From Flammeovirgaceae bacterium SG7u.111 (GTDB lineage Bacteria; Bacteroidota; Bacteroidia; Cytophagales; Flammeovirgaceae), in NCBI GenBank assembly GCA_034044135.1, contig CP139021.1, positions 3,301,635 through 3,365,634 of the forward strand: a stretch of 64,000 nucleotides of DNA, given 5' to 3'. Under the pieces are notes generated by a model, which searched no databases, was not told where the DNA came from, and worked only from the letters and a program-made list of their open reading frames with translations. Below, in pieces: positions 16,468-64,000 of the stretch. Within the stretch, counting starts at the first letter, position 1, and the number at the start of each line of letters is the position of its first letter. The position numbers and the translations under genes were made by a program.

Positions 16468-18819
16468 ATGTTGAAAACTATAAAGTTTATTCTATTAGCA
16501 ATTACCCTTTTTGGGAGTTCTTTTTCTGGAATTGCCCAAAGAAAGAAAATTGATCCGTATAAAAATTCGAAACTTCCAATAGAAGAGCGGCTGGATGATC
16601 TTTTTGCACGTATGACCTTGGAGGAAAAAGCGATGCAGGTTTTGTGTATTTGGGATCAAAAAGCTGAATTGATTTTAGATGAAGATGGCAACTTTTCTTT
16701 GGAAAAAGCAGCACAAAACTTTCCGAATGGGTTAGGTCAAATTGCCCGTCCGAGCGAAGCATTGGAGCGTGTGCAAATGCAGAACAGGACGCCAACCCAA
16801 ATGGCGGAACTTACCAATGAAATCCAACGCTATTTTGTAGAGAAAACAAGGCTGGGAATACCAGTAGTGTTCCATGAAGAAGTACTGCACGGGCATGCAG
16901 CGAGGAAAGGAACTCATTTTCCTGTTCCTATTGCCCTTGCCAGCTCGTGGGATACCGATTTGATGGAACGTAGTTTTTCTGTCATAGCCGAAGAGGCGAG
17001 GAGTAGGGGGGCGCAACTTGCCTTGGCTCCTGTATTAGATGTGGCTCGCGACCCTCGTTGGGGAAGGTTTGAAGAAACTTATGGAGAAGATCCGTTTTTG
17101 GTCTCGGAGATGGGCTTGGCAGCGGTAAAGGGGCTTCAAGGTACGGAAGAGCAAATTGGCTCTGCTAAAATGATGGCTACGCTCAAGCACTTGGCTGGTC
17201 ATGGGCAACCCGAAGGTGGGGTGAATACTGCACCTGCAAATATTTCGGAAAGGTTGCTCAGGGAAGTGTTTTTGATGCCCTTCGAGAAAGCTATAAAGCA
17301 AGGTGGGGCAAAAAGTGTGATGGCTTCTTACAACGAAATTGACGGGATTCCGTCACACATCAATTCTTGGTTGCTCAAGGATGTATTGAGAAATGAGTGG
17401 GGTTTTGATGGGCAAGTTGTAGCCGATTATGGTGGGATTTCCGACTTGTATCGCAGGCATTTTGTAGTGAAAGACAGTACTGAAGCAGCTAGGGAAGCCT
17501 TGCTTGCCGGGGTAGATATAGAATTGCCAGATATGGTAGACTACCCTTCATTGTTGAAATATGCAGCACAAGATTCAGTCATTGCAACTGCATTGGACAC
17601 GGCTGTTTATCGTTTGCTCAAAAACAAATTTCTGCTTGGACTGTTCGACGAACCCTATGTGGATGTTTCTTCTACCGAGAAAATAGTAGGTTCTGAAAAA
17701 AATGGAAAACTTGCCCTAGAGGCTGCCCAAAAATCCATTGTCCTTCTTAAAAATGAGATGAACTTGCTTCCCTTAAATACTTCCTTTTACAATACGATAG
17801 CTGTGATAGGACCGAATGCAAAATCGACGTTGCTGGGAGGCTACAGCGATGTGCCGCCTTATTATGTTGATTTGGTGGAAGGGTTGAAAAATCGATTGGG
17901 GAATAATGGCGAGGTGGTATTTGCAGAAGGCTGCCGGATAACCGAACCAGGTAGCTGGTATTTAGACCCTGTTCAATTGCCTTCACCCAAAGCAGATGAG
18001 GGTCGGATTGAACATGCCGTCACTATTGCGGAGCGGAGTGATTTGGTTATTTTAGCTATTGGAGGAAATGAACTTACCTCAAGAGAGGCTTGGAGCGATA
18101 CACATTTAGGTGACCGCACCAGTATTGAGTTGGTAGGGAAGCAACTGGAATTATTCAATAAGTTGAAAGAAACGGGCAGGCCGGTAGTAGTGGTACTGTT
18201 TAATGGCAGGCCACTCGATTTGTCGTATTTGAAGGAAAATGCACAGGTGTTGTTGGAGTGCTGGTACTTGGGTCAAGAGACTGGAAATGCGCTTGCAGAT
18301 GTATTGCTTGGCAATGTAAATCCGTCAGGAAAGCTGCCTTGCACATTCCCCAAATCTACTGGGCTTCTACCTGCTTTCTACAACCACAAACCGACTGCCA
18401 AGCGCCCCTATTTGTTTGACGAACATAAGCCTGTTTACCCTTTTGGTTTTGGCTTGAGCTATACTGATTTTTCTTATAAGGATCTTACAGTCAACCCTTC
18501 TGTTATTGGGATGAACAGCAAATCCTTGGTTTCGGTGACTGTAACGAATACTGGTGACGTGAGAGGAGATGAGATTGTCCAACTGTATATTAGGGACATG
18601 GTAAGTTCGGTTACTCGACCTGTAAAAGAGCTAAAAGGATTCCAGAAAGTACAGCTGAGACCTGGGCAGGAAAAAGTTGTGACCTTTGAGGTGACTCCTG
18701 AACTGCTAAAGTTTTACAATAAAGATATGGAAAATGTACTTGAACCCGGACGATTTAAGCTTATGGTTGGTTCTTCGTCCGAAGAGTATATAGAAGCCTA
18801 TCTGAATGTGGTGAATTAG
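16468..18819 (+). CDS. GH3 beta-glucosidase-type glycoside hydrolase, secreted
   Basis: A 783-residue GH3 enzyme. Signal peptide 1-23 (FILLAITLFGSSFSGIAQ), (beta/alpha)8 domain to about 370 with DPRWGR (195-200), substrate-binding KH (240-241) and nucleophile Asp320 in VVADYGG, then the alpha/beta sandwich and a C-terminal fibronectin III-like domain (from about 690, with FELKGFQKV-type ending ELKGFQKVQL). This is the BglX/exo-glucosidase layout, so it removes terminal beta-linked sugars from oligosaccharides in the periplasm. It precedes a propeller-type sensor kinase and a clan GH-A-like lipoprotein on the same strand, suggesting a small carbohydrate-responsive group. Confidence 0.92.
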   Translation: MLKTIKFILLAITLFGSSFSGIAQRKKIDPYKNSKLPIEERLDDLFARMTLEEKAMQVLCIWDQKAELILDEDGNFSLEKAAQNFPNGLGQIARPSEALERVQMQNRTPTQMAELTNEIQRYFVEKTRLGIPVVFHEEVLHGHAARKGTHFPVPIALASSWDTDLMERSFSVIAEEARSRGAQLALAPVLDVARDPRWGRFEETYGEDPFLVSEMGLAAVKGLQGTEEQIGSAKMMATLKHLAGHGQPEGGVNTAPANISERLLREVFLMPFEKAIKQGGAKSVMASYNEIDGIPSHINSWLLKDVLRNEWGFDGQVVADYGGISDLYRRHFVVKDSTEAAREALLAGVDIELPDMVDYPSLLKYAAQDSVIATALDTAVYRLLKNKFLLGLFDEPYVDVSSTEKIVGSEKNGKLALEAAQKSIVLLKNEMNLLPLNTSFYNTIAVIGPNAKSTLLGGYSDVPPYYVDLVEGLKNRLGNNGEVVFAEGCRITEPGSWYLDPVQLPSPKADEGRIEHAVTIAERSDLVILAIGGNELTSREAWSDTHLGDRTSIELVGKQLELFNKLKETGRPVVVVLFNGRPLDLSYLKENAQVLLECWYLGQETGNALADVLLGNVNPSGKLPCTFPKSTGLLPAFYNHKPTAKRPYLFDEHKPVYPFGFGLSYTDFSYKDLTVNPSVIGMNSKSLVSVTVTNTGDVRGDEIVQLYIRDMVSSVTRPVKELKGFQKVQLRPGQEKVVTFEVTPELLKFYNKDMENVLEPGRFKLMVGSSSEEYIEAYLNVVN

Positions 18820-47266: not shown

Positions 47267-48811
47267 TTAAATAGAACCAATATAGATGGTGAGGCTCGAA
47301 TTAGAGGGAAGTCCCATTTTTTTGCGAATCCTGTAGCGGGAAGTATGCACGCTTTGGAGTGAAATGTTCAATATTTTAGCCATTTCGTGGCTGTTCAAGT
47401 TGAGCTTGATAAGGGCACAGTGTTTTAGCTCTGTGGAAGATAAATTAGGGTGTTTTTTGCACAAAGTAGAATAAAAATCATTGTTGACCTCTACAAATCG
47501 CCTGTTAAATTCTTCCCAGGAATTGTTTGTCCCTTTAGCATATTTTTTTTTAAGTAGCTGATAGTTTTCGGGATGGGATTTTTTTACCACATCCAAAATT
47601 GCGTTCACTGCATCCTCCATTTCTATCATCTTTATGGCATAGGATGTCAGCTCCTTGCTTTTGATTTCTAATACCGCCTTGTTTTTAGCTCTGTCAAGCT
47701 CACCTACCAATGAGAGTTTTTTGATCTTGTTGCGCTGGTAATACAAAAGGTACACACTGATGAAGATGATAAGAGTAAGTCCAAATAATAGAAAAAGCCG
47801 GAATAATTCCTCGTTTTTTTGTTCAATAAGGCTCTCTTGGCGTTCAATCAATTTTTGATTTTCGGTTATCTCAGCTTTGTATTTGTTTTTGATTTCGAAT
47901 AAGCGTTGGCTGCTCTTGCTGCTTGTGCTAAATAATTGTTCGAAACTCTTTTTGGATTCCTTCATGCTGCTTACGGCTTTCAGGCATTCTCCTTTTATCG
48001 TATAGATTTCACTTATTTTTTCGAGTAGGTCTGGCTTAAACTCCAAATGGACATTTCTTTCGTCCATTAACTGGAGACTTTTGTTGTAATATACCAATGC
48101 GCTATCGTATTGAAATTGCTCTTTTTTCAGGTCGCCTATAAACGACAAGTTTGCCACTACATAAGGGGCATTCATATTAACGAGGTGGTGCTGTGCCCTA
48201 AAAAGGAGTTTTTCTGCCTCTGCAAGGTTTTCTAGTTGCAAATTGCAAAAGCCCCTATCTGCCAATATATAGGGAAGGATTCTTGGGGGATCAAAAATAA
48301 TCGTACATGAATCTAAATACACCAATGCTTCCTCATAATTTTTTCGATCTCTCCAAAATGTAGCAATGGAAAAATAACTTGAAACCACCTGGTGTTTGGT
48401 GTAAGGTTTGTCTATAGCCAGTTCTTTCGACAAACTTAAAGAAGTGTATAAATGCTGTAAGGCTAAGGAGTCCTTCTCGTAAATATCATACAATATTCCA
48501 AGCCCTCTATAAATGGTGATTAGTTGATTGTCCAATTGTTGTTTTTCCGCAATAAGTAGAGCATCCCAAAGCCTGTCGAATGCAAGGTCATAATCGCCTC
48601 GGTACCTTTCTATTTGGGCAAGATCTATCAAGCACTTTACTATAGCCAAAGTATCCTTGTTTACAAGGGCACTTTGGTGTTCTTTGGTAAGCTCTTCATG
48701 TGTTTTGGTTTGCTTAGGAACCATGCCCTTATCAATACCATACATAGTATGACTTGAAATGACGCAGAAAAAAATTAAGACTGAATACCTTATTGATTTA
48801 ATAACCACCAT
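47267..48811 (-). CDS. TPR-containing membrane regulator with LuxR-type HTH
   Basis: A 514-residue protein. A signal peptide (about 1-27) is followed by a periplasmic TPR-like helical array (about 30-300), a coiled-coil stretch, a transmembrane helix (about 336-358, LFLLFGLTLIIFISVYLLYY) and a cytosolic C-terminus ending in a LuxR/GerE-like helix-turn-helix (LSSTELKHCALIKLNLNSHE, SLQSVHTSRYRIRKKMGL). Such TPR-membrane-HTH proteins are common in Bacteroidota. It is divergent from the polysaccharide operon that starts 264 bases away, so it is the best local candidate for its regulator, but it could also be independent. Confidence 0.85.
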   Translation of the reverse strand: MVVIKSIRYSVLIFFCVISSHTMYGIDKGMVPKQTKTHEELTKEHQSALVNKDTLAIVKCLIDLAQIERYRGDYDLAFDRLWDALLIAEKQQLDNQLITIYRGLGILYDIYEKDSLALQHLYTSLSLSKELAIDKPYTKHQVVSSYFSIATFWRDRKNYEEALVYLDSCTIIFDPPRILPYILADRGFCNLQLENLAEAEKLLFRAQHHLVNMNAPYVVANLSFIGDLKKEQFQYDSALVYYNKSLQLMDERNVHLEFKPDLLEKISEIYTIKGECLKAVSSMKESKKSFEQLFSTSSKSSQRLFEIKNKYKAEITENQKLIERQESLIEQKNEELFRLFLLFGLTLIIFISVYLLYYQRNKIKKLSLVGELDRAKNKAVLEIKSKELTSYAIKMIEMEDAVNAILDVVKKSHPENYQLLKKKYAKGTNNSWEEFNRRFVEVNNDFYSTLCKKHPNLSSTELKHCALIKLNLNSHEMAKILNISLQSVHTSRYRIRKKMGLPSNSSLTIYIGSI

Positions 48812-49074
48812 GTGCCAAATATAATCTATTGATAGAAATGGAATAGGGGTAACAGTTTTTTGAATACTTGGAATATAGCATAAGTGGCTTAAAATCAGTA
48901 TAAAATCTATATGCTGAAAATAGCTTGTCTAGTATTTGACTATTGGGGACTTCGTTTTGAATAGTTATAGAATAGTAAAAAATAGAGAAATGAAGGATGG
49001 TATCGCCAATTTTAAAGCACTATAAATATTATGCTTGATATTTTTCATGCATACAACTTCACAGATACCACAAA

Positions 49075-51750: not shown

Positions 51751-51768
51751 ATATAATACATTGAAAAA

Positions 51769-51800
51769 ATGAAGAAATGAAGAAATGAAGAAATGAAGAA
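51769..51800 (+). repeat. Four tandem copies of ATGAAGAA before the first GH117 gene
   Basis: The 8-bp unit ATGAAGAA is repeated exactly four times; the last copy contains the real start codon at 51793. Each of the first three ATGs reads Met-Lys-Lys-stop, and each TGA stop overlaps the ATG of the copy after next as A-TGA sequence, forming a chain of minicistrons leading to the gene. Because each unit carries its own start, changes in copy number would not alter the protein. Confidence 0.85.
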
Positions 51801-53082
51801 ATTACAAAAAATTGCATTACTGATTTTTATCGCTTTTGCCGTGGTATCGTGCTCACAATCAGAAAAGAAAGCTGAGCTTGAAGCGAAGCTCGAAGCCGAA
51901 GTTACAGGCGCATTCCCGTTTGAAATGCCTGCCGAAAAACCGAACCGCCCAATGAGTGCGGCCATGGAGCGGATTTATACGGATTATGAAGCTCCGCAAC
52001 CTCAAAACAACGAGCTGTTTAGCCAATTCAAATACACCGAGCTGAAAGGCTTTGATTACAACGGTTACGATGGAACCATTACCAGAAGAGATCCTTCGAA
52101 AATCATTCGGCACAATGGGAAATACTACGTATGGTACACTTATCGGAATACTCCAACACCTCCTCAAGGTGCAGAAAAGTCGACAGATTTGATTCCTTCG
52201 TCTGACTGGGACTTGTCGGAAATTTGGTATGCTACTTCTGCCGATGGCTTTACTTGGAAAGAACAAGGCGTGGCCATTAAGCGTCCTGAAAAACCCTTGG
52301 TAGGCTGGCGATCGGTAACCACGACCGATATCTTAGAATGGGAAGGAAAGTTCTATTTGTATTACCAAGGCTTTATGGAAGCCAGCGGCAAGCGTGGTGA
52401 CGATTGTCCGGTAGCTGTTTCTTATGCCGATTCTCCAGAAGGACCTTGGACGCCCTACAATAAAATTGTCATTCCAAACGGAGCAGAAGGCGAATGGGAC
52501 CAGTTTTCCATCCACGATCCTTATCCTTTGGTGCACGATGGCAAAGTATATATTTACTACAAATCTGATTTTGGTAAAAAACCACATTTGGTACGTATGC
52601 AAGGCTTAGCGATTGCCGACAATCCATTAGGGCCATTTACCAAGCATCCATTGAACCCGCTAATCACCTCAGGGCATGAAACTTCCCTGTTTCCATTTAA
52701 AGAAGGGGTAGCAGCTTTGGTGTATAAAGACGGCCCTGAGCACAACACTATCCAATATGCAAAGGACTGGGTGAATTTTGAAATTGCTTCTATCACTGAA
52801 CTGATGCCTTATGCTGCTGCGCCTTACGTGCCAGATGCTTTTACCAATACCAAAGATGGTCGGGGGATCACTTGGGGATTGGCACACTTTATAAATACAA
52901 CGGGTGATTGGAGCAAGTTTAATTCAAAACTGGTTCGGTTCGATTGCGATTTGAGCAGAGATATCCACGATCCTGAGATGAAACAGCACCGCGTAAACCA
53001 TAAGCCAGATGTCTATTTCCGCCAAGGCTTGAGCAAGAAGCAACAGGAGCGAATTGAGGAACAAAATAAGGGATTGGAGTAA
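51793..53082 (+). CDS. GH117-family glycoside hydrolase, lipoprotein (copy 1)
   Basis: A 429-residue lipoprotein (FAVVSC, Cys20) with a five-bladed propeller of the GH117 family. ITRRDPSKII gives the base Asp100, SIHDPYPL Asp242, and ITSGHETSLFPFKEG the His295-Glu296 pair that matches the acid His and neighbouring Glu described for GH117 enzymes; IWYATSADGFTWKEQG and GLAIADNPLGPFTKHPLNPL are further family stretches. GH117 members studied so far release terminal alpha-1,3-linked 3,6-anhydro-L-galactose from agar oligosaccharides, although other clades differ. Second gene of the operon. An N-terminal extension (about 20-50) carries the MPAEKPNRPMS segment also seen in copy 2. Confidence 0.88.
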   Translation: MKKLQKIALLIFIAFAVVSCSQSEKKAELEAKLEAEVTGAFPFEMPAEKPNRPMSAAMERIYTDYEAPQPQNNELFSQFKYTELKGFDYNGYDGTITRRDPSKIIRHNGKYYVWYTYRNTPTPPQGAEKSTDLIPSSDWDLSEIWYATSADGFTWKEQGVAIKRPEKPLVGWRSVTTTDILEWEGKFYLYYQGFMEASGKRGDDCPVAVSYADSPEGPWTPYNKIVIPNGAEGEWDQFSIHDPYPLVHDGKVYIYYKSDFGKKPHLVRMQGLAIADNPLGPFTKHPLNPLITSGHETSLFPFKEGVAALVYKDGPEHNTIQYAKDWVNFEIASITELMPYAAAPYVPDAFTNTKDGRGITWGLAHFINTTGDWSKFNSKLVRFDCDLSRDIHDPEMKQHRVNHKPDVYFRQGLSKKQQERIEEQNKGLE

Positions 53083-53154
53083 TGAGATAGAGAATAAATA
53101 TTTATTCTCTTTTAAAATAGCCAATAGATTTTTTGAATGAATTACGATAAAAAA

Positions 53155-55359
53155 ATGAAAAAAAGCCTTCTAAACCACAAGCTTATCACTGTCCTGCCAC
53201 TAATTCTGTTCTCAATAGTAGTTCATGCACAAGAGGTGGATTTTACCTTTTTCGATAACAGTCTTCCCCTCGAAGAACGAGTGGAGATCCTAGTCTCTCA
53301 AATGACAGTGGAGGAAAAAATTAGCCAATTGACCAATGGTGCAGCAGCCATCCCTCGGCTTAGCGTGCCCGATTACGATTGGTGGAACGAAGCCCTCCAC
53401 GGGATCGCCCGAAATGGGAAAGCGACTATTTTCCCCCAAGGAATAGGAATGGGGGCAACTTTTGACCCGGAATTGGCAGAAAGGGTAGCTTCTGCAATTT
53501 CGACTGAGGCAAGGGCTAAATACATTATTTCCCAAAAAATGGGAAACCATAGCAAATATGCTGGACTGACCTTCTGGACACCAAATGTCAATATTTTCCG
53601 TGATCCTCGCTGGGGGCGTGGTCAAGAGACCTATGGCGAAGACCCATTTTTGATGTCGAAAATAGGAGTAGCATTTGTAAAAGGCTTGCAGGGAAACGAC
53701 CCGACCTATTTGAAATCCGCCGCCTGCGCCAAGCACTTTGCCGTGCATTCAGGCCCTGAGGAGGTTAGGCATACATTCAACGCCATTCCCAACAAACAAG
53801 ATTTGCACGAAACCTATTTGCCAGCCTTTGAGGCATTGGTGACCGAAGCCAAGGTTGAAGGTGTCATGGCAGCATACAATGCGGTTTATGGAATCCCATC
53901 TGCTGCGAGTCCTTTTCTTTTGCAAGATATTTTGCATAACCAGTGGGGTTTTGACGGCTACGTCACATCCGACTGCGGGGCAATAAGTGGGGTGACGGCT
54001 AAACTCAACTATGCAAAAACTCCAGCCGAAGCTGCTGCTGTTTCCCTAAAAGCTGGAACTAATCTTAACTGTGGGAAAACTTATAAAAGGCTTGTAGAAG
54101 CTCTGAAACAAGGCTTGGTAACGGAAGAGCTGATTCACGAAAGAACCAAGCAACTTTTTAAGACTCGTTTCCGATTAGGCATGTTTGACAAGGACGTAGA
54201 CCACCCTTATTTCAAAGTTAGCGGAGACAATATCCACAGTGATGAGCATGTAGCCTTGGCGCGTGAAGCTGCTCAGAAGTCGATTGTTTTGCTTAAGAAC
54301 AAAAACAATATTCTTCCCCTTCCAAAAGATATCAAAGTCCCGTATGTAACTGGCCCTTTTGCCAACTCAAATGACATGCTCATGGGGAGTTACTATGGCA
54401 TAAGCACCAATATAGTGACCATTTTAGAAGGGATTGCTGATGCAGTTTCCTTGGGGACTTCTTTGAATTACCGTAGTGGCGCACTCCCTTTCCACGACAA
54501 TATCAATCCTAAAAACTGGGCGCCATTTGTTGCTGGCGAATCGGATGTTACTATTTGTGTGGTAGGTCTCACGGCGGACAGGGAAGGAGAAGAAGTGGAT
54601 GCAATAGCTTCGTCGGATATAGGAGACAAAAGGGATTTGAAACTGCCTGCCAATCAAATTAATTATGTGAAGCAAATCATTGAAAAGAAAAAAGGACCAT
54701 TGATTTTGGTAGTAGCCAGCGGTAGTCCCGTTTCGCTCGAAGGAATTGAAGAAGACTGCGAGGCAGTGCTGCAAATTTGGTATCCGGGCGAGCAAGGGGG
54801 CAATGCCGTTGCCGATGTGCTGTTTGGCGATATTTCCCCTTCTGGAAAACTACCAATCACCTTCCCAAAAAATATAGCCCAGCTTCCTCCATACGAAGAT
54901 TATTCCATGCAAGGACGCACCTACAAATACATGACCGAAGAACCAATGTTCCCCTTTGGCTTCGGATTAACTTATTCTACAGCTGAAATCAGCAACTTGA
55001 CTCTCAGTGCTGAAAAACTAAAGAAAACCCAATCGCTAGAAGTTCAGGTAGAAATAGCAAACACAGGCGAATACGATATTGATGAAGTAGTGCAACTTTA
55101 CGTTTGCCCAACGGACACCACAGGTGGAATCCCTTTGAAAAGTTTGAAAGCTTTTGAGCGTGTTCCTTTGAAAAAAGGTGAGAAGAAATCAATAGGGTTT
55201 TCCTTGGACCCTGAATCCTTAAAAGTGGTCAACGAGGAAGGCGAAAAAGTGTGGAGAAAAGGAGAATACAAAATCATAGTTGGAAATTCTTCGCCAGGAG
55301 AATTAAGTGTAAAACTAGGAGCTGCTGTTCCGCAAGAAGAAATCATCACCTTAAAATAA
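53155..55359 (+). CDS. GH3 glycoside hydrolase, xylosidase/arabinofuranosidase-like subtype
   Basis: A 734-residue secreted GH3 enzyme. With the ATG at 53155 it starts MKKSLLNHKLITVLPLILFS and has a normal signal peptide ending in VVHAQ; an in-frame ATG at 53137 adds six residues. WWNEALHGIARNG, DPRWGRGQETYGEDPFL, KHFAVHSGPE and the nucleophile Asp273 in YVTSDCGAISG follow the plant-type beta-xylosidase/alpha-arabinofuranosidase subgroup (SDC rather than SDY). A fibronectin III-like C-terminus closes it. It is encoded between two GH117 genes and probably trims neutral sugars after desulfation; in galactan loci the same subgroup also acts as beta-galactosidase. Confidence 0.9.
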   Translation: MKKSLLNHKLITVLPLILFSIVVHAQEVDFTFFDNSLPLEERVEILVSQMTVEEKISQLTNGAAAIPRLSVPDYDWWNEALHGIARNGKATIFPQGIGMGATFDPELAERVASAISTEARAKYIISQKMGNHSKYAGLTFWTPNVNIFRDPRWGRGQETYGEDPFLMSKIGVAFVKGLQGNDPTYLKSAACAKHFAVHSGPEEVRHTFNAIPNKQDLHETYLPAFEALVTEAKVEGVMAAYNAVYGIPSAASPFLLQDILHNQWGFDGYVTSDCGAISGVTAKLNYAKTPAEAAAVSLKAGTNLNCGKTYKRLVEALKQGLVTEELIHERTKQLFKTRFRLGMFDKDVDHPYFKVSGDNIHSDEHVALAREAAQKSIVLLKNKNNILPLPKDIKVPYVTGPFANSNDMLMGSYYGISTNIVTILEGIADAVSLGTSLNYRSGALPFHDNINPKNWAPFVAGESDVTICVVGLTADREGEEVDAIASSDIGDKRDLKLPANQINYVKQIIEKKKGPLILVVASGSPVSLEGIEEDCEAVLQIWYPGEQGGNAVADVLFGDISPSGKLPITFPKNIAQLPPYEDYSMQGRTYKYMTEEPMFPFGFGLTYSTAEISNLTLSAEKLKKTQSLEVQVEIANTGEYDIDEVVQLYVCPTDTTGGIPLKSLKAFERVPLKKGEKKSIGFSLDPESLKVVNEEGEKVWRKGEYKIIVGNSSPGELSVKLGAAVPQEEIITLK

Positions 55360-55365
55360 TAAGCC

Positions 55366-56652
55366 ATGTCAACTTATATAAAGAACTTCACACTAACAGG
55401 ATTGATCGTACTGGTGTTTTTTTCATGTACAGAACCTCAAAAGCAAGAAATCCCAAAAACTGTAGAACCTCAGGTATTTCCTCACAAAATGCCAGAGGAA
55501 AAGCCCGACTTTCCAATGAGTGCTGCTGCAGAGCGCATGTTCGACTACCCAGCTCCGCGTGTGCAGGACAATGAATTGTATTCGCTTTTCAAATATACCA
55601 AATTGGAAGGGTTGGATTACAACGGCGGCGACGGCACTATCACACGCCGAGACCCTTCACGCCCCGTGTTCGTGAATGGGAAGTATTACATGTGGTACAC
55701 CAAGCGGCACACAAAAGTACCGCCAGTTGGTGCAAGCAATGCCGATCAGGCTACTGATGAAATCCCTTCCACCGATTGGGATTTGTGCGATTTGTGGTAT
55801 GCTACGAGTGAAGACGGCTTTACTTGGGAAGAACAGGGCATCGCAGTGGCTCGACCAGAAAAACCTGCACTAGGTTGGAGGTCTATCGCTACACCGGATA
55901 TCTTGATCTGGGAAGGGAAATATTATCTCTATTTTCAAGCGTTCAACGAGCCAAGTGGTACTCGTGGCGATTGGTGCCCGATTTCTATGGCTTATGCCGA
56001 CTCGCCTGACGGACCTTGGACGCATGTGGGCAAACCCGTTGTTCCTTTTGGCAAAAAAGGAGAGTGGGACCAAGACCAAACGCAAGATCCGCACCCAATT
56101 ATTTATAAAGGAAAAATCTACTTGTACTACAAAGCCGCATACAACAAGTGGCCTGACAAACGAGACAAATATGCTGTTGGTCACGGCTTAGCCATTGCCG
56201 ATAATCCTATGGGTCCATTTGAAAAACACCCATTGAACCCTGTGCTGAATTCCGGTCACGAGACAACGTATTTTCCATTCAAAGAAGGAATTGCCGCATT
56301 AGTCATCAAAGATGGGAACGAGCACGAAACCATGCAATACGCCGAAGATGGAGTGAATTTCAATATTGCTGCTGTGGTGGAGCTTACACCGACTGCCGCT
56401 GGGGCATTCACGCCCGATGCCTTTACGGGAACGGATTATGGCAAAGGAATCACTTGGGGAGTTTGCCATTTCATCAATGCAGGAACTACCCGTGAAAACA
56501 AACATTCCATCATAGCAAGATTCGACTGCGATTTGAGTTTGGACACCCACGAGCCTTGGCTTAAAAGCACAGGTGTTTGGCATCGACCTGAAGTATATTT
56601 CAAACAAGGTCTGGGCGGATTAAGAAAAAAACGTGAAGGGCTTCCCAAATAA
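55366..56652 (+). CDS. GH117-family glycoside hydrolase, lipoprotein (copy 2)
   Basis: A 428-residue paralogue of the GH117 encoded at 51793. Lipobox VFFSC (Cys21); catalytic positions conserved as Asp96 (TITRRDPSRP), Asp241 (QTQDPHPII) and His298-Glu299 (LNSGHETTYF). It differs from copy 1 in the loops around TKRHTKVPPVGASNADQA and in a longer insert AAYNKWPDKRDKYAVGHG after blade 4, places that shape the substrate pocket, so the two copies may cut different linkages or sulfation states. It starts 6 bases after the GH3 stop codon: translational coupling is likely. Confidence 0.88.
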   Translation: MSTYIKNFTLTGLIVLVFFSCTEPQKQEIPKTVEPQVFPHKMPEEKPDFPMSAAAERMFDYPAPRVQDNELYSLFKYTKLEGLDYNGGDGTITRRDPSRPVFVNGKYYMWYTKRHTKVPPVGASNADQATDEIPSTDWDLCDLWYATSEDGFTWEEQGIAVARPEKPALGWRSIATPDILIWEGKYYLYFQAFNEPSGTRGDWCPISMAYADSPDGPWTHVGKPVVPFGKKGEWDQDQTQDPHPIIYKGKIYLYYKAAYNKWPDKRDKYAVGHGLAIADNPMGPFEKHPLNPVLNSGHETTYFPFKEGIAALVIKDGNEHETMQYAEDGVNFNIAAVVELTPTAAGAFTPDAFTGTDYGKGITWGVCHFINAGTTRENKHSIIARFDCDLSLDTHEPWLKSTGVWHRPEVYFKQGLGGLRKKREGLPK

Positions 56653-56672
56653 GACTTCCTTAAACTATTGAT

Positions 56673-59024
56673 ATGAAAGTTTTCAACTATTTTTTATTCA
56701 TCATTTTTAACCTGGTAATTGTTGCTTATGGGCAGACGCCAGAGTTCTCAACTCCCGAAATTGACGCCAAAGTAGATGCATTGCTGGCAAAAATGACCAT
56801 GGAAGAAAAGCTGGCGCAAATTACGGGCACTCGGCTTAGAGAAATCATGGTAGATGGAAAAGTTTCCATAGAAAAATGCAGGGAACACATTCCACATGGT
56901 ATAGGTCATTTTTGCCAGTTTTCTACTGGTCAAAATCTTTCCCCAGAAGAGTTGAGGGATTTGGTGAGGGAAGTACAACACTACCTCATGACCGAAACAA
57001 GGTTAAAAGTTCCAGCAATTTTCCATGAAGAGGCCATTACCGGTTTTACCACTTTGGGAGCTACTACTTTTCCCCAGCAAATAGGCGTAGGTTGCACTTG
57101 GAATCCTGAGTTGGTATCGCAAAATACTGCTTCAACTCGAAAGAGTATGCGGGCTGCAGGAGCTACCTTTGCCCTGTCGCCTATGCTCGACCTTAGCCGA
57201 ACAGCGCACTGGAACCGCCACCAAGAGAGCTATGGCGAGGATGCTTATTTGACTTCGCGCATGGGAGTTGCATTTGTTAAAGGCTTGCAAGGTGACGATT
57301 TCAGAACAGGAGTTGCAGCCACAGTTAAGCACTTTGCGGGGTACGGCACAAAAAACAACAGCGAAAAGGTCTTGTACGAAGAATACCTCATGCCACACGA
57401 AGCGTGTATAAAGGTAGCTGGGGCAAAAAGCGTCATGCCTTCGTATGGGGTCTACAAAGCGCTCCCTATTTCGGTGAACCCCACTATGCTCACGCAAATG
57501 CTTCGGAAGGATATAGGATTTGATGGGCTGGTGGTGAGCGACTACGGCGCCATTACTCAAGTATTCAAAAAATACAAAAGAGCGCCCGACTTGATGACTG
57601 CAGGTGCCATGGCGCTGAATGCAGGCTTGGACATCGAATTATCCTCACCTACGGCATTTCCCCTTTTGCCAAAGGCACTTGAAGAAGGCTTAGTGACTGA
57701 AGAGCAGATAAATACTGCGGTAAGACGTTCGCTGACCATGAAAGCCAAATTAGGCTTGCTCGATGAACATCCTCAAATTGGTGTAGATGGAGATTTAGAT
57801 TTTGACCCTCCTGCCAATAGGGAATTAGCGTACAAAACGGCTGCCCAATCCATCGTGTTGCTTAAGAACAATGGTGTTCTTCCACTAAAGAAAAATGTAA
57901 AAAAAATAGCTCTTGTAGGACCAAACGCAGCCACTGTACACGGACTTTTGGGCGATTATACCTACCAAGGAATGAGGGCTTTTTGGAAGCAAGCTGAATT
58001 TGACCAAAACAACCCCAAATTGGTTACAGTGAAGGAAGGTTTGGAGCAAAAGCTTGGCAGAAAAGTGAAATTGCAACACGAAAGAGGTTGCGATTGGAGT
58101 GCTGCGCTTGAAGCCAAAATAGATACAAAAACATTTGGCGACAGCCGAGTAGAACAGTTAAAACTACTTACTATCAAAGACTTGCCTCAGCCCGACTTGC
58201 AAAATGCGCTGAAGATTGCCAAGGAAAGCGATGTAGTGATTGCCGTAATGGGCGAAAATCTTTACCTCAACGGAGAAGGGCGTTGGAGAAAAGGTATCCG
58301 TTTGCCCGGAGAGCAAGAAGCGTTTGTTGAGAAACTAATTGAAACGGGTAAGCCAGTTGTTCTAGTAATCTTAAGCGGCAGGCAACAGGTAATCAGTGCC
58401 ATTGAAGGCAAATGTGCTGCCGTTGTTCAAGGATGGTTTCCTGGCGAAGAAGGAGGCAATGCTATAGCCGATGTACTACTGGGCAACGTGAACCCATCGG
58501 GCAAATTATGTGTGTCTTATCCAAGTACCGAAGAAGAAGTGGAGATCAATTACCAAAATGGTTACCCTGATATTGCTCCCCAATATCCTTTTGGGTTTGG
58601 CTTGTCCTATACCACTTACGAATACGGAAACTTGGAAATGCAACCTCAAGCAAAGGTTACCGACGACCGGTTTTCAATTTCTTTTACTGTGAGAAATACG
58701 GGAAAAATGGATGGAGCTGAAGTTGTTCAACTATACGTTTCCCCAATTGAAAAGACGTCTGGCATGAAACCTATCCAACTAAAAGGTTTTCAACGGGTAC
58801 CACTCAAGGCTGGAGAAGAGGAAAAAGTCACTTTTGAAGTTTCTCCCCAACAATTGGCGCAATATATAAATGGTGAATGGGTGATAGAAGCTGGAAAATA
58901 TGAATTCAAGGTAGGGGCATCGTGTACCGATATTAAGCTTAGCGGTACTGTTGAGCTAACAGGACAAGATATTTTTCTGGAAAATGGACGTCAAGTATTT
59001 TTCTCTACTACTTCGGCAAAATAA
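56673..59024 (+). CDS. GH3 glycoside hydrolase, divergent active-site surroundings
   Basis: A 783-residue secreted GH3 enzyme (signal peptide 1-20, ending VAYGQ). Nucleophile Asp290 in VVSDYGAITQ and the KH pair at 219-220 are present, but the otherwise strongly conserved DPRWGR is DLSRTAHWNRHQ (172-183), and the SYNEIDG-type loop is SYGVYKALPISVNP. These residues line the -1 subsite, so the sugar accepted is likely to differ from glucose or xylose. The alpha/beta sandwich and fibronectin III-like domain are complete. It follows GH117 copy 2 by 20 bases. Confidence 0.88.
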   Translation: MKVFNYFLFIIFNLVIVAYGQTPEFSTPEIDAKVDALLAKMTMEEKLAQITGTRLREIMVDGKVSIEKCREHIPHGIGHFCQFSTGQNLSPEELRDLVREVQHYLMTETRLKVPAIFHEEAITGFTTLGATTFPQQIGVGCTWNPELVSQNTASTRKSMRAAGATFALSPMLDLSRTAHWNRHQESYGEDAYLTSRMGVAFVKGLQGDDFRTGVAATVKHFAGYGTKNNSEKVLYEEYLMPHEACIKVAGAKSVMPSYGVYKALPISVNPTMLTQMLRKDIGFDGLVVSDYGAITQVFKKYKRAPDLMTAGAMALNAGLDIELSSPTAFPLLPKALEEGLVTEEQINTAVRRSLTMKAKLGLLDEHPQIGVDGDLDFDPPANRELAYKTAAQSIVLLKNNGVLPLKKNVKKIALVGPNAATVHGLLGDYTYQGMRAFWKQAEFDQNNPKLVTVKEGLEQKLGRKVKLQHERGCDWSAALEAKIDTKTFGDSRVEQLKLLTIKDLPQPDLQNALKIAKESDVVIAVMGENLYLNGEGRWRKGIRLPGEQEAFVEKLIETGKPVVLVILSGRQQVISAIEGKCAAVVQGWFPGEEGGNAIADVLLGNVNPSGKLCVSYPSTEEEVEINYQNGYPDIAPQYPFGFGLSYTTYEYGNLEMQPQAKVTDDRFSISFTVRNTGKMDGAEVVQLYVSPIEKTSGMKPIQLKGFQRVPLKAGEEEKVTFEVSPQQLAQYINGEWVIEAGKYEFKVGASCTDIKLSGTVELTGQDIFLENGRQVFFSTTSAK

Positions 59025-59079
59025 GATGATGTTCAAATAAAAAATAATGTTACCATAACAAAATAAAAACATAAATATA

Positions 59080-60495
59080 ATGAACGATTATTCATTAAAA
59101 AATATAATGGCACTTGGAATATTAGCTGTTGTTGTATTTGTTGCTCCTCAAGAGGTGTTTGCCCAGAAAAAAACAAACATCATTTTACTGTTTGCCGACG
59201 ATGCCGGGTATCATGATTTCGGCTTCCAAGGTAGCAAAACTTTTAAGACTCCCCATCTCGATCAATTAGCATCGGAAGGGATGGTGTTTAAAGAAGCTTA
59301 TACAACGGCAGCGGTTTGTGGTCCATCTAGGGCTGGTTTACTTACGGGCATGTACCAGCAGCGCTTTGGCTTTGAGGAAAATAATGTCCCCGGCTACATG
59401 AGTGCATCGTCCAAGCTGATGGGCGACGATATGGGCTTGCCGCTGAATCTGAAAACCGTTGCAGATTACTTGAATCCTTTGGGTTATCAGTCTATTATAT
59501 TGGGCAAATGGCACATGGGTAATGCGGACAGGTACCACCCGCTTAGGAGAGGCTTCGATGAGTTTTACGGTTTTAGAGGCGGGGCAAGAAGTTTCTTTCC
59601 CCTCACACAAAAAGAAGCATTTGATAAGCCCGAAGATAGGTTGGAAAAAGGCTTTGGAAACTTTAAAGAACCAGAGAAATACTTGACCGATGACCTGGCA
59701 GATGAAGCCTGTGATTTTATAGATAGGAATAAAGAAAAACCATTTTTCATGTATGTTTCTTTCAATGCGGTTCATTCTCCATTGCATGCTACAAAAGAAG
59801 ATTTGGCGAAAGTAGAAGGGCTTACAGGTAAGCGTAAGATATTGGCAGCAATGACCATTGCAATGGACAGGGCTTGTGGGCAGATCTTGGCAAAGCTGAA
59901 AGAGCATGGTTTGGATGAAAACACCTTGGTGGTATTTTCCAACGACAACGGAGGCCCTGACGGAACACACACCTGCAACTATCCTCTGAGCGGTTGTAAA
60001 TCCAACAACCTTGAAGGTGGAATAAGAGTGCCTTGCATCATGAAACTTCCTTCGGTAATCGAAGAAGGCTCGCATTACGATAAGCCGGTGAGTATGCTCG
60101 ATATGCTTCCTACTTTTGTAAACGCCGCTGGCGGTAATGCTTCAAAAATAAAAGGATTAGACGGTGTTGATCTCCTTCCTTTTGTCACTGGAGAAAACAA
60201 GTCAGCTCCTCACGAAATCCTTTTTTGGAAAAAAGAAAATAGGGGGATTGTCCGAAAAGGAGATTGGAAAATGCTCCGCTTTCCAGATCGACCGGCAGAG
60301 CTGTACAACATTGCCAAAGATGAAGAAGAAAATAACAACTTGGCTTACGAACATCCTGAAAAAGTCAGAGAAATGTTCAAGCTATTGTTTGAGTGGGAAG
60401 GGGAGTTGGAGCGACCGCTTTGGCAACTTAAGCGGATCTACGAAGTAAACGCCATGAAGCGGATGGACGAGAAAAGAACGCCGGTGCTCGATTAG
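59080..60495 (+). CDS. S1-family formylglycine sulfatase (first)
   Basis: A 471-residue secreted sulfatase (signal peptide to about residue 29, QEVFAQ). The alkaline-phosphatase-fold metal site reads FADDAGY (Asp40, Asp41), the maturation motif is CGPSRAGLLTG with Cys80 to be converted to formylglycine, and SNDNGGPDG and KWHMGN complete the core. Being Cys-type, it needs a formylglycine-generating or anaerobic maturase encoded elsewhere. It acts in the periplasm on a sulfated sugar; the S1 subfamily cannot be decided by eye. Located between GH3 and a second sulfatase. Confidence 0.93.
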   Translation: MNDYSLKNIMALGILAVVVFVAPQEVFAQKKTNIILLFADDAGYHDFGFQGSKTFKTPHLDQLASEGMVFKEAYTTAAVCGPSRAGLLTGMYQQRFGFEENNVPGYMSASSKLMGDDMGLPLNLKTVADYLNPLGYQSIILGKWHMGNADRYHPLRRGFDEFYGFRGGARSFFPLTQKEAFDKPEDRLEKGFGNFKEPEKYLTDDLADEACDFIDRNKEKPFFMYVSFNAVHSPLHATKEDLAKVEGLTGKRKILAAMTIAMDRACGQILAKLKEHGLDENTLVVFSNDNGGPDGTHTCNYPLSGCKSNNLEGGIRVPCIMKLPSVIEEGSHYDKPVSMLDMLPTFVNAAGGNASKIKGLDGVDLLPFVTGENKSAPHEILFWKKENRGIVRKGDWKMLRFPDRPAELYNIAKDEEENNNLAYEHPEKVREMFKLLFEWEGELERPLWQLKRIYEVNAMKRMDEKRTPVLD

Positions 60496-60531
60496 AATTC
60501 TGATTAAACCTACTGCTTTAATATATTTATT

Positions 60532-62052
60532 ATGAAGTGTTTTGCTTGTAACTGTTCAATTATAAAAATAAGTGTTTTAACAATGCTTTTTTTGGGGCTC
60601 GGGTATGTAGCCAAGGCACAAGACCGCCCAAATATGATTGTGATTATTGCCGATGATTTGGGATACAATGATGTAGGGTTTAATGGCAGTAAAGAAATCC
60701 AAACCCCAAATTTGGATAGACTTGCCGATAATGGGGTGGTCTTTACCAACGGTTATGTGACGCATCCCTACTGCGGACCTTCTAGGGCTGGGCTAATTAC
60801 GGGTCGTTACCAAGCACGGTTTGGGTTGGAAATCAATTTGACTAACTCGTTTTTTGACACCCATAGTGGGTTGCCCTTGACGGAGACTACATTTGCAAAA
60901 CGCCTTCAAAAATCGGGTTATCATACAGGAATTATAGGTAAATGGCACTTGGGAGGTTCCCATCCTTACCATCCTAACAACAGGGGCTTCGATTATTTCT
61001 ATGGATTCCTATCTGGCGGGCATACTTACTGGCCAGAAAATGTAACCACAACTCACCCTCTTTACTTGGATAATGGAAAACCTCATTATTCAGCCAACGA
61101 AGGAGGGTATTGGCCATTGATGCGTAACAACAATGCAGCTGAGTTTGATGAATACCTCACTACTGCACTGAGCAGAGATGCAGCGAAGTTTGTGAAAAGT
61201 AGTGACAAACCATTTTGCCTTTACCTAGCTTACAATGCACCGCACGCTCCTTTGGAAGCGCCAAAAGAGTTGATCGATAAATATTCAAACATCGATCACA
61301 AACAAAGAAGAATCTATGCGGCCATGGTTGATGCGATGGATCAGGGAATTGGGATGGTAGTCCAAGCCTTGGAAGAATCTGGTAAACTTGACAATACGCT
61401 CATTTTCTTCATTTCCGACAATGGAGGAATTGTAGATAAGTCCCGTAAAGAATCAGATCCAAGAGGCGAGAAAAATGACTGGGGAGATAATTTTCCCTAT
61501 CGGGGTGGAAAAGGCAGTATGCTAGAAGGAGGCCATAATGTCCCGTTTATTGCCCATTGGCCTAAGGGGTTAACTTCAGGGAAAACCTATTCTTTACCAG
61601 TATCGGCATTGGACATTGCAGCAACTTTTGTTGCCCTTGGCAATGGAGATAATTCAGGGCCTGAGCTCGAAGGCGTAAACCTTATCCCGTATGTGGTAGG
61701 TGAAAAGAGAGGGGTGCCTCATAAAGCAATCTACTGGAGAATGAAAGATGGGGTAAACTGGGCAATCCGTACACCTGAGGCAAAATACCTGTTGCCACGA
61801 AAAGAACACGGAGGTGCTCCTATGCTTTTTGATATGAACAAAGACCCTTATGAAAGTAAAAATATCATTAACGAGCGTCCCGAATTAAGGAAAAAGCTTG
61901 CAATGATGTGGAATGAGTGGAATGCTCAAAACCAACCGAATAAATACTTGCAAGCTGGGGAGTATCAAAAAGAACGCCTGAAGTTTTACGAAGAGCAAAG
62001 AAAGCGCCTTGATGAGGAGGCGAAAAAGAAGAAGCCCTTGGTCATCGAGTAA
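60532..62052 (+). CDS. S1-family formylglycine sulfatase (second)
   Basis: A 506-residue secreted sulfatase, not a close copy of the preceding one. Signal peptide to about residue 30 (VAKAQ), metal site IADDLGYND (Asp41, Asp42), maturation motif YCGPSRAGLITG (Cys81), KWHLGGSHPYHP and FISDNGGI. The central loop with GGHTYWPENVTTTHPLYLDN is long and typical of exo-sulfatases acting on oligosaccharide ends. Two sulfatases in one operon imply at least two sulfate positions to be removed. The C-terminal ~40 residues form a charged helix. Confidence 0.93.
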   Translation: MKCFACNCSIIKISVLTMLFLGLGYVAKAQDRPNMIVIIADDLGYNDVGFNGSKEIQTPNLDRLADNGVVFTNGYVTHPYCGPSRAGLITGRYQARFGLEINLTNSFFDTHSGLPLTETTFAKRLQKSGYHTGIIGKWHLGGSHPYHPNNRGFDYFYGFLSGGHTYWPENVTTTHPLYLDNGKPHYSANEGGYWPLMRNNNAAEFDEYLTTALSRDAAKFVKSSDKPFCLYLAYNAPHAPLEAPKELIDKYSNIDHKQRRIYAAMVDAMDQGIGMVVQALEESGKLDNTLIFFISDNGGIVDKSRKESDPRGEKNDWGDNFPYRGGKGSMLEGGHNVPFIAHWPKGLTSGKTYSLPVSALDIAATFVALGNGDNSGPELEGVNLIPYVVGEKRGVPHKAIYWRMKDGVNWAIRTPEAKYLLPRKEHGGAPMLFDMNKDPYESKNIINERPELRKKLAMMWNEWNAQNQPNKYLQAGEYQKERLKFYEEQRKRLDEEAKKKKPLVIE

Positions 62053-62089
62053 GTCTGAAAAATGATAAATAATCACTTGAAATATAAAA

Positions 62090-63436
62090 ATGAAAAGTAT
62101 ATATATAGTTTGTTTTCTAGTATTACCATTCTTGACAGGTTGTGATCAGCAGTCAGAAACGGAGACTGATCCAGTGCTCGATTTCTTGAATTTAAAATTT
62201 GGCATGTTCATCCATTATAACATGGGTACGTACCATGCCGAACAATGGGCAAAGCCAAATCATGACCCTAAGTCATTTGCTCCTACCAACCTCAATTGCG
62301 ATCAGTGGGCAAAAGCAGCAAAATCGGCTAAAATGAACTATGCTGTTTTTACTACAAAACACCATGATGGCTTTTGCTTATGGGACTCTAAAGTAACGAC
62401 TTATGATATAGGCAGCAGTTCTTACAAAGGCGATATAGTAAAAGAGTATGTTGATGCTTTCCGAAAACAAGATATTAAAGTAGGGCTCTATTTTTCAGTA
62501 TGGGACCGTCAGCACGATATTCAGCATGGATCAGTTACGCCCGAAAAAATTGAATTTACAAAAGAGCAATTACGCGAGCTTTTGTCGAACTACGGAAAGG
62601 TAGAATGTGTGGTAATAGATGGATGGGGCTCAAAATGGGGGAATGGACCTGATTTTGACGACATCCCTTTTGATACCTTGGCAAATGTAATCCATGCTTT
62701 ACAGCCCAATTGCCTAGTGATTAATCATAGCTGCAAAACTGATCTGAATGTAACCCAATTGGTGCATTACGAAGCTACACACGGTCAGCATTGCCCATCT
62801 GACAACACCATTCCCTCGCAGCAAGGCCCCACCATTCAGCCAGCTTGGTTTTGGGAAAAGCATTTTGCAGACTTGGATCTAAAACCAGTTGATGATGTGG
62901 TAAAAGAGCTAAACTTTGCCAATTCGCATTATGCCAACTACCTGCTAAATGCTGCCCCAAATGATAAAGGTTTGATGGACGATAATGTAATTGAACGGCT
63001 AAAAGAAATAGGGGAAGCTGTAACGCTTTCAGAGCCTTTAGCTGCCTTGCCAGAAATAAAACCTGTTCATATGGGCGTAAAGGCAACTTCTTCTAGCTCC
63101 AACGGAGAAGAGTTTGGAGCTAGCAATGTAATCGATTGCGATTTGTTTACACGTTGGCAATACACAGAAGGAGATAGTGCACGCTGGCTCGAATTAGATT
63201 TTGGATCACCAAAGGTCTTTAATAAGGTGATTTGCGGTGAGTACAAATCAGGGGTAGAAGCTTTTAAAATTGAGGCTTTGGTAGATGACCAATGGAAGCT
63301 GCTAGTTGAAGGTGGGAAAATGACCTTCAATTTCAACCGAAGCTTTGAGGAAGTTACCGCTCAAAAATTCCGCTTGACAATACTTGAAGCAAGCCGTTTG
63401 CCGCGTGTTGCCGAATTGACGTTTGTAAAATATTAA
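62090..63436 (+). CDS. GH29 alpha-L-fucosidase/galactosidase-type lipoprotein with discoidin-like domain
   Basis: A 448-residue lipoprotein (LTGC, Cys18). The GH29 barrel covers about 30-330: FGMFIHYNMGTYHAEQWA, TTKHHDGFCLWDS, and nucleophile Asp177 in VVIDGWGSKWG. Residues about 340-448 form an F5/8 type C (CBM32-like) beta sandwich (DLFTRWQYTEGDSARWLELD to LPRVAELTFVKY) that may bind galactosides. GH29 enzymes remove alpha-L-fucose; some from porphyran loci remove alpha-L-galactose instead. Given the GH117 and sulfatase neighbours, alpha-L-galactosidase activity is a reasonable alternative. Family sure; substrate not. Confidence 0.9.
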   Translation: MKSIYIVCFLVLPFLTGCDQQSETETDPVLDFLNLKFGMFIHYNMGTYHAEQWAKPNHDPKSFAPTNLNCDQWAKAAKSAKMNYAVFTTKHHDGFCLWDSKVTTYDIGSSSYKGDIVKEYVDAFRKQDIKVGLYFSVWDRQHDIQHGSVTPEKIEFTKEQLRELLSNYGKVECVVIDGWGSKWGNGPDFDDIPFDTLANVIHALQPNCLVINHSCKTDLNVTQLVHYEATHGQHCPSDNTIPSQQGPTIQPAWFWEKHFADLDLKPVDDVVKELNFANSHYANYLLNAAPNDKGLMDDNVIERLKEIGEAVTLSEPLAALPEIKPVHMGVKATSSSSNGEEFGASNVIDCDLFTRWQYTEGDSARWLELDFGSPKVFNKVICGEYKSGVEAFKIEALVDDQWKLLVEGGKMTFNFNRSFEEVTAQKFRLTILEASRLPRVAELTFVKY

Positions 63437-63571
63437 TGCTTATTGCCCTTGGATGAACATTGGGGCGAGCTATTATATGCAAACGTTTGACTATTGAGTG
63501 AAGGGGAATATAAGTAGCTTTGGTTAACTAACTACATAGGGTCATAAGTAAAGCTAGCAATGAATGGGACT

Positions 63572-63590
63572 CCATCTCAAGTAGAGATGG
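63572..63590 (+). terminator. Hairpin between GH29 and the next gene
   Basis: CCATCTC, five-base loop, GAGATGG, followed by TTGTTAGTTATTATTA. It may be a weak terminator or attenuator separating the last gene from the upstream operon, where the gap is 181 bases instead of 6-72. Confidence 0.4.
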
Positions 63591-63617
63591 TTGTTAGTTA
63601 TTATTAGACGAGTAAAT

Positions 63618-64000
63618 ATGAAATCATTTTTTCAAAGCTTAAGGCTACTTGCCTTTATTTGTTTAGCCTTCAATAGTAGTTGTACAAAAGAAAAAGAGGC
63701 TTCAGTTGGGGAAGCTGCAGAAGTAATTCCTACTACACACACCTCTGATGCATTGGCTATAGATGTGATTGTTCCTGAGCACGGCATGGCCGATCCTCAC
63801 GCATGGGTTCAAAACGATACTGTATTTATCATTTGTGGTCACGATGAATCTTGGGAAGGAAAAGGTTCTTTCCGTATGGATAGGTGGGAAGTCTGGTCTT
63901 CGGCTGACTTAAAAAACTGGAATCATCACAGAGATATCCTACCTTCTCAAACCTATATAGGCGACCAAGCAAATTGCTGGGCGGGCGATATTTGCGAAAG
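63618..64000 (+). CDS. GH43-like lipoprotein (C-terminus cut by window edge)
   Basis: The first 127 residues of a frame that is open to the window end. MKSFFQSLRLLAFICLAFNS and Cys22 form a lipoprotein signal. ADPHAWVQNDTVFIICGHDE starts the first propeller blade with the Asp expected as general base of GH43-type enzymes; MDRWEVWSSADLKNWNHH and CWAGDICE follow the family pattern of blade 1 to 2. Specificity is unknown; GH43 enzymes commonly release arabinose, xylose or galactose. Confidence 0.75.
   Translation, partial: MKSFFQSLRLLAFICLAFNSSCTKEKEASVGEAAEVIPTTHTSDALAIDVIVPEHGMADPHAWVQNDTVFIICGHDESWEGKGSFRMDRWEVWSSADLKNWNHHRDILPSQTYIGDQANCWAGDICE

Follow-up and report, generated by a model that had tools for sequence, protein, structure and literature searches.

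We analyzed a 64,000-nucleotide stretch of contig CP139021.1 (here C1) of Flammeovirgaceae bacterium SG7u.111 (the window, C1:3301635-3365634), in which begins a 17-gene cluster that probably dismantles sulfated agaran (porphyran-type galactan) in a stepwise manner (probability of about 0.78), and which would be a variant form of a known kind of system. By its genes it appears distinctive as an agaran/porphyran locus devoid of SusC/SusD, with glycoside hydrolases (GHs) of family GH3 and no GH2, and with two GH117 proteins outside the agarose clade. Sixteen genes are co-directional (+) and one, the regulator, is divergent. The order (Table 1) runs from this tetratricopeptide repeat (TPR)-LuxR regulator through an Asp-box protein (AspBox), GH117a, GH3a, GH117b, GH3b, the sulfatases S1a and S1b, GH29a, and GH43, and continues with GH29b, S1c, S1d, S1e, GH16, a Gfo/Idh oxidoreductase, and an FN3/propeller protein. 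The co-directional block spans 28.3 kb and reaches the would-be window coordinate 77393, about 13 kb past the window edge, and nearly half of the cluster sits outside the window. The gaps are 6 to 154 nt from AspBox to GH43 and -4 to 154 nt in the whole block, but 323 nt ahead of the final gene. The preliminary description of the window had located its genes correctly, as a block on one strand with a divergent regulator. Chance is not an issue, since the open reading frames (ORFs) are long and have full-length homologs, and a distant Bacteroidota lineage has much of the same arrangement.

S1d, GH16, and, less firmly, GH29b point to an L-galactan. In the search against solved structures, which covered GH117a, GH3a, GH29a, GH43, GH29b, S1d, S1e, GH16, and the FN3/propeller protein, S1d matched two exo-L-galactose-6-sulfatases (7snj, 595 bits; 7lha, 594 bits), the next solved proteins scoring 341 bits or less. 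It is 52% identical to a sulfatase that, on Bacteroides uniformis plasmid pBUN1, has a GH29 and a GH16-type gene as neighbors (for this plasmid, the gene names GH117A/B, GH16, and S1_11 were assigned here by gene order, length, and elimination). By sequence, S1d belongs to the exo-L-galactose-6-sulfatase type, a member of the porphyran exo-cycle set; the C-x-P-x-R motif was found in all five S1 sulfatases of the locus by motif search. The best solved relative of GH29b is the exo-alpha-L-galactosidase 7ljj (275 bits; next protein, 214), while GH29a is a remote GH29, weakly like solved members of the family (best match of 146 bits over residues 26-215). GH16 is a family of mostly endo-enzymes. 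The copy found here scored highest with four porphyranases (175, 133, 122, and 115 bits), followed by an unnamed GH16 (49 bits), agarases (at most 46), and kappa-carrageenase (18). It keeps the ExDxxE motif intact as EWDIQE, is 39% identical over 94% to the pBUN1 GH16-type gene, and classifies as beta-porphyranase-like by nearest structures and motif. Because of these nearest relatives of S1d, GH29b, and GH16, a sulfated galactan of L configuration is the most likely target. The sulfated red-algal galactan of the preliminary description is thereby supported, and S1d and GH16, together with the less firm GH29b, narrow it to the L-galactose (agaran/porphyran) series. Its exo-only reading of the locus was rejected after extension of the sequence to the right, which revealed the GH16 with its intact motif in the same operon; the absence of endo-enzymes is true only of the window.

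The two GH117 proteins, which Pfam calls only as weak GH43 (50 and 40 bits), are close to solved GH117-type chains. GH117a scored 685 bits with 4u6d and 535 with the second such chain, versus 217 with 3p2n, named 3,6-anhydro-alpha-L-galactosidase. Identity to 4u6d and 4u6b is 73% and 58% for GH117a, and 61% and 72% for GH117b; we take these chains to be the Zobellia proteins Zg3615 (4u6d) and Zg3597 (4u6b). GH117a keeps D100, D242, and H295/E296, which presumably are the catalytic-type residues (the Asp in RRDPS, the Asp in HDP, and the His-Glu in SGHE). These are also kept in GH117b, with QDP in place of HDP. The QDP of GH117b (window 55366-56652) is shared with one other genome (G193), while 4u6b, three other motif-bearing homologs, and most GH117s have HDP at this place beside the catalytic-type Asp. 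Compared with the agarose-type GH117 next to the catabolic block of pBUN1, GH117a and GH117b are 41% and 37% identical, versus 58% and 55% with the other, non-agarose GH117 of this plasmid, and both lack the 16-residue insertion of the agarose clade. By these comparisons, they are placed outside that clade (neoagarobiose hydrolase), as orthologs of 4u6d and 4u6b. GH117A of Bacteroides strain NP1, which we equate by elimination with the non-agarose GH117 of pBUN1, was tested for agarose activity and none was seen, according to an excerpt of PMC5849685. The presence of GH117 is therefore not by itself proof of agarose-type 3,6-anhydro-L-galactose ends, as the preliminary description had it, since both copies go with other groups. 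The structures of these groups have been solved, and we know of no agarose activity in them. Here they gain a consistent genomic home, with an L-galactose-6-sulfatase type, a GH16, and GH3s alongside, so that their substrates become directly testable. Two more paralogs of the GH117a type (73% and 70%) sit at C1:3708000-3727900 and C1:5415000-5434900, each accompanied by a GH29 and one or more S1 sulfatases, and thus the host genome, of 7.7 Mb and with 63 sulfatase match rows, has several such loci.

The locus is not a canonical polysaccharide utilization locus (PUL), since no adjacent SusC/SusD pair was found. SusD models gave no match between C1:3242551 and C1:3417502, the positions of the nearest matches, and no SusC-like ORF was seen by eye among those listed for C1:3365000-3403900, where no SusC model was run. 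The lack of SusC/D seen in the preliminary description thus holds in the extension, and of the two things that it proposed to look for further to the right, the endo-enzyme was found and SusC/D was not. A distal agar locus 1.3 Mb away (C1:4648000-4667900) encodes SusC, SusD, RhaT, an epimerase, an aldehyde dehydrogenase, a short-chain dehydrogenase/reductase, and an alcohol dehydrogenase, as well as an agarose-type GH117 (60%), a GH2 (55%), an enolase-superfamily gene (73% to pBUN1), and a neighboring TPR-LuxR gene. The enolase-superfamily gene presumably acts as anhydrogalactonate cycloisomerase. Transport in trans is plausible, since the distal SusC and SusD, the one pair of this genome used in the comparison, share 58% and 55% identity with a Maribacter pair located after AspBox-S1c-S1-GH117a. 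The catabolic genes are called anhydrogalactose-type from 52 to 79% identity to the pBUN1 block, itself only generically annotated, and from what a passage of PMC5613140 says about the agar cluster of Zobellia. NCBIfam gave them no name containing anhydrogalactose, and only a generic aldehyde dehydrogenase was above its cut-off.

From gene content, order, homology, motifs, and conservation, we infer substrates, order of steps, cell location, transporter, and regulation as follows. The TPR-LuxR protein would span the inner membrane and switch on the divergent operon. GH16 would endo-cut the chain at beta-1,4 bonds, and the oligosaccharides would be imported by SusC/D encoded outside the locus, plausibly by the pair of the distal agar locus. 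In the periplasm, S1d would strip the 6-sulfate from terminal alpha-L-galactose and GH29b (or GH29a) would free the L-galactose. GH117a and GH117b could free anhydro- or substituted L-galactose ends that the agarose-type GH117 does not serve, S1a, S1b, S1c, and S1e would take off other sulfates, and GH3a, GH3b, and GH43 may remove beta-linked galactose, 6-O-methyl-galactose, or xylose side stubs. AspBox may act as a GH74-fold binding protein or hydrolase, and anhydrogalactose would be catabolized through the distal agar locus.

We searched for the arrangement elsewhere using a profile made from an 11-row alignment of GH117a. The scan gave 349 relatives, and the counts below use the best 80 of them (66 of these loci are at least 19 kb long). 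Partners were counted over 40% of the query, with identity thresholds of, e.g., 55% for S1e, 50% for S1a, 45% for GH16, 28% for TPR-LuxR, and 30% for GH2, GH86, and P450. GH2 was found in 18 of the 80 loci, the S1e type in 17, S1a in 10, S1d in 7, and GH86 in 5, while the GH16, GH3a, S1c, and GH29b types were rarer (4 each). In two Lutibacter species, GH117a, GH16, and GH3a are consecutive. P450-like genes were found in 8 loci (L077 and L093 among them) with a partial ORF, itself with weak P450 matches, as the query; these neighbors are in keeping with the demethylation of 6-O-methylgalactose published for agarose loci (excerpt of PMC12316285). The host genome has a single P450 match, at C1:4924904.

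Several observations weigh against an agaran or porphyran target. The partner counts have no random control, and most loci are without most partners. The Pfam matches obtained for the 18 proteins scanned (2 of which had no match at all) include no GH2, the usual exo-beta-galactosidase. GH29b shares only 37% identity with the GH29 of pBUN1, and its family is expanded to such a degree (as many as 22 matches in a single relative, many of similar score) that the substrate is uncertain; GH29b is thus no more than a candidate alpha-L-galactosidase. Furcellaran-active GH16s are likewise nearest to porphyranase structures, at 26 to 29% identity (excerpt of PMC5943477). In the closest related locus, that of Wenyingzhuangia aestuarii, there is no homolog of S1d or GH29b and no ortholog of GH117b in the stretches examined. 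The nearest solved relative of S1e, a weak one (189 bits), is an exo-4S-kappa-carrageenan sulfatase. Finally, both GH3s look like xylosidases. GH3a scored 776 bits with the NCBIfam model Xyl3A (below its cut-off of 1250), versus 399 with BglX, and its nearest solved chain is a xylan 1,4-beta-xylosidase (382 bits). The best model for GH3b is the xylosidase/arabinosidase NF052329 (523 bits, below the cut-off of 1050).

This last point leads to a possible, though doubtful, alternative, a side-chain-bearing agaran (sulfated xylogalactan) from which GH3a, GH3b, and GH43 would strip beta-xylosyl groups at O-6 of galactose, either ahead of or during backbone degradation by GH16, S1d, GH29b, and GH117. 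The best structural match of GH43 is also a xylosidase/arabinofuranosidase. Four of the 80 loci have a relative of GH3a (71 to 76% identity), and all four also have a relative of GH16 or GH86, which makes for an agaran setting. Of the six GH3a copies compared, five keep the motif PRWGRGQETYGEDP and the sixth has ETF. The xylogalactan of Jania carries beta-xylose at O-6 of Gal (excerpt of PMC9504466), but classical corallinans are described in a part of PMC7511586 as being without the 6-sulfate on the L-unit that S1d would need. In addition, both GH3 scores are below curated cut-offs, the specificity of GH3 shifts easily, and no gene of xylose catabolism was seen in the locus. No pathway for bacterial breakdown of xylogalactan was found in the titles and listings of the open-licence literature.

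A carrageenan-type or hybrid D/L galactan is a quite improbable target: S1e and the design without SusC/D, resembling the Zobellia carrageenan cluster (excerpt of PMC5698469), would suit it, but the same Pfam matches hold no GH127, GH129, or GH82, S1d is of the L-galactose-6-sulfatase type, and GH16 is nearer to porphyranases than to kappa-carrageenase. A fucose-rich glycan (fucoidan or sulfated fucan), suggested by two GH29s (the named matches of GH29a being mostly called fucosidases) and five S1 sulfatases, is hardly credible, since it leaves the porphyranase-like GH16, two GH117s, and S1d without a known role and GH29b scores alpha-L-galactosidase above fucosidases. The stepwise degradation of a sulfated, porphyran-type agaran is retained as the likeliest reading. 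A bolder and unlikely extension is that of a transporter-less type of locus, common to one Flammeovirgaceae-like and one Flavobacteriaceae bacterium and run by membrane-spanning TPR-LuxR regulators, for xylose-bearing sulfated agarans, in which GH3/GH43 would debranch, GH117s of orphan groups would act on the ends made of substituted L-galactose, and AspBox, with its GH74 fold, would be an undescribed galactanase family. The locus also provides a defined enzyme set, with its five S1 sulfatases, GH3a, GH3b, and the AspBox of predicted GH74 fold, for natural substituted agarans that purified agar does not represent.

The AlphaFold model of AspBox (pLDDT of 71) retrieved in Foldseek a top 25 composed entirely of GH74 or xyloglucan enzymes by title, at 13 to 17% identity. 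Its alignment using VIA-align gave a Z of 29.0 (rmsd of 6.0, 619 aligned), a modest margin over unrelated WD40 propellers (Z up to 25.8), and the fold is thus predicted, by this margin, to be a GH74-like twin seven-bladed propeller. D76 and E547 are invariant in a five-row alignment, even at 25 to 28% identity. In three other distant homologs, a pattern search matched the first motif (PDM) and not that of E547. GH74 enzymes have two catalytic Asp residues in motifs like these. Should this equivalence of motifs be right, AspBox would have an Asp/Glu variant of the GH74 pair, which is a lead.

The regulator has an N-terminal hydrophobic stretch, TPR repeats, one transmembrane segment (about 339-357), and a C-terminal LuxR-type helix-turn-helix. 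Its gene (at least 28% identity) was found in 20 of the 80 GH117a loci, upstream and divergent in 18. We found 31 matches in six genomes, chosen for holding GH117 loci, and examined the surroundings of 28 (two of these stretches overlap and two are shortened by contig ends). GH117, GH16, or GH86 was present in 13 of the 28, compared with none of 20 control stretches, for which three of these genomes were used, and some PUL marker in 24 of 28, compared with 2 of 20. Six of the 28 sites were known beforehand; without them, the counts are 7/22 and 18/22. Because of the preselected genomes, the known sites, and this recount, we rejected a regulator specific to red-galactan loci, and TPR-LuxR is more aptly called a regulator of carbohydrate loci in general. 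The host genome has five matches, and the three full-length ones lie beside GH16/GH117/sulfatase clusters. The third full-length relative (C1:5741967-5743409; L161:5959-7593) is divergent from a beta-helix protein with a type IX secretion system tail, near two sulfatases and a GH16-like gene (30% to the operon GH16, no Pfam match). By listing, the open-licence literature gave none for TPR, LuxR, and PUL together and nothing relevant for TPR, LuxR, and agarase. LUXR-like factors are drawn among carrageenan-system genes of other species in a figure legend of PMC5698469, which weighs against the novelty of the regulator.

Table 1. Genes of the cluster, in window coordinates or, past the window edge, in those of L010 (C1:3365000-3384900)
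Gene	Position	Strand	Basis
TPR-LuxR regulator	47267..48811	-	Pfam TPR_12; GerE 22.4 bits, just under the 23.5 cut-off; transmembrane scan
Asp-box lipoprotein (leader by eye), 891 aa	49075..51750	+	Pfam Sortilin-Vps10/BNR; predicted GH74-like double beta-propeller
GH117a, lipoprotein (by eye)	51793..53082	+	Ortholog of PDB 4u6d (73%)
GH3a, beta-xylosidase-like	53137..55359	+	NCBIfam Xyl3A; nearest PDB; motifs PRWGRGQETYGEDP, TSDC
GH117b, lipoprotein (by eye)	55366..56652	+	Ortholog of PDB 4u6b (72%)
GH3b	56673..59024	+	Nearest model xylosidase/arabinosidase, NCBIfam NF052329
S1a, formylglycine-type sulfatase	59080..60495	+	Pfam; motif CGPSR
S1b, formylglycine-type sulfatase	60532..62052	+	Pfam; motif CGPSR
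GH29a with F5/8C domain, lipoprotein (by eye)	62090..63436	+	Pfam; PDB matches
GH43, xylosidase/arabinofuranosidase-like lipoprotein	63591..64000 in window; whole L010:226-1656 (C1:3365225-3366655)	+	PDB matches
GH29b	L010:1683-3239	+	PDB matches
S1c	L010:3339-5024	+	
S1d	L010:5021-6679	+	PDB matches
S1e	L010:6754-8598	+	PDB matches
GH16	L010:8739-9974	+	PDB matches; motif
Gfo/Idh oxidoreductase	L010:10010-11410	+	
FN3/propeller protein	L010:11734-14028	+	No Pfam match; chance-level PDB matches

Lipoprotein-type leaders were recognized by eye in AspBox, GH117a, GH117b, GH29a, GH43, and S1d. The GH43 gene crosses the window edge, would end at window coordinate 65021, and has an alternative ATG at 63618. 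The FN3/propeller gene apparently loses its frame near its end (L010:14020-14180, C1:3379019-3379179), where a homolog (L049) runs about 50 residues more, here in another frame, by mutation or assembly error. A structure model of its Jejuia homolog was unusable (pLDDT of 36.5). A second GH16 may have been lost at the operon end, as suggested by a decayed fragment 13.6 kb beyond the window (C1:3379240-3379347, L010:14241-14348), in which 36 residues show 69% identity to the beginning of the operon GH16, with a second short GH16-like piece after it in another frame. A RhaT-like gene lies on the opposite strand 476 nt beyond the block, and the window has a further GH3 gene at 16840-18792 (37% to GH3a).

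Among known systems, Bacteroides plebeius uses an S1_11, GH29, and GH16 trio, with a GH2, to degrade methylated and plain porphyran oligosaccharides, and the published cycle begins with GH16, followed by S1_11, GH29, and GH2 (excerpt of PMC12316285). This trio of its PUL-PorB is the likeness with our locus, but SusC/D and GH2 are present there and neither GH117 nor GH3 is among the genes named in that excerpt. Human-gut Bacteroides/Phocaeicola plasmids (NZ_AP019725.1 and NZ_CP103198.1) carry relatives of the locus genes. The first of these, pBUN1, is typed as mobilizable and holds a whole agar/porphyran-type PUL, which we equate with the Ag-PUL of NP1 described in part of PMC5849685. Its GH29 (37%), GH16 type (39%), and sulfatase (52%) are neighbors, and a GH117 is 58% identical. 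It differs by SusC/D, GH86, three GH2-type genes, an agarose-type GH117, anhydrogalactose-type catabolic genes, and a regulator like those of hybrid two-component systems, and its incomplete gene table lists no GH3, true GH43, or AspBox in the 50-kb stretch. The Zobellia carrageenan cluster ZGAL_3145-3159 is likewise non-canonical, without SusC/D and with a transporter pair elsewhere, but has GH127/GH129, D-anhydrogalactose chemistry, and an AraC regulator (excerpt of PMC5698469).

The closest locus is that of W. aestuarii DSM 105044 (contig NZ_JAATJG010000012.1, stretches L064, L151, L158, and L159), with ten gene types in common: TPR-LuxR (53%, likewise divergent), AspBox (64%), GH117a (81%), GH3a (75%), GH3b (74%), S1a (80%), GH43 (75%), S1c (63%), S1e (69%), and GH16 (59%). 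The combination, for which the preliminary description had no described match, is thus largely matched there. The order is shuffled: after the divergent regulator come apiosidase-like, S1, GH3b, GH16-like (34%), AspBox (64%), GH43, S1, a second AspBox (58%), S1c, esterase-like, an unassigned ORF, GH16, GH117a, GH2, S1e, GH3a, S1e, and S1a, so that the GH2, the second AspBox, the second GH16-like gene, and the apiosidase-like and acetylesterase-like genes are extra. Like our locus, this one showed no SusC/D over the approximately 65 kb of contig examined. A galactan locus without SusC/D and with a divergent TPR-LuxR is common to two distant Bacteroidota lineages.

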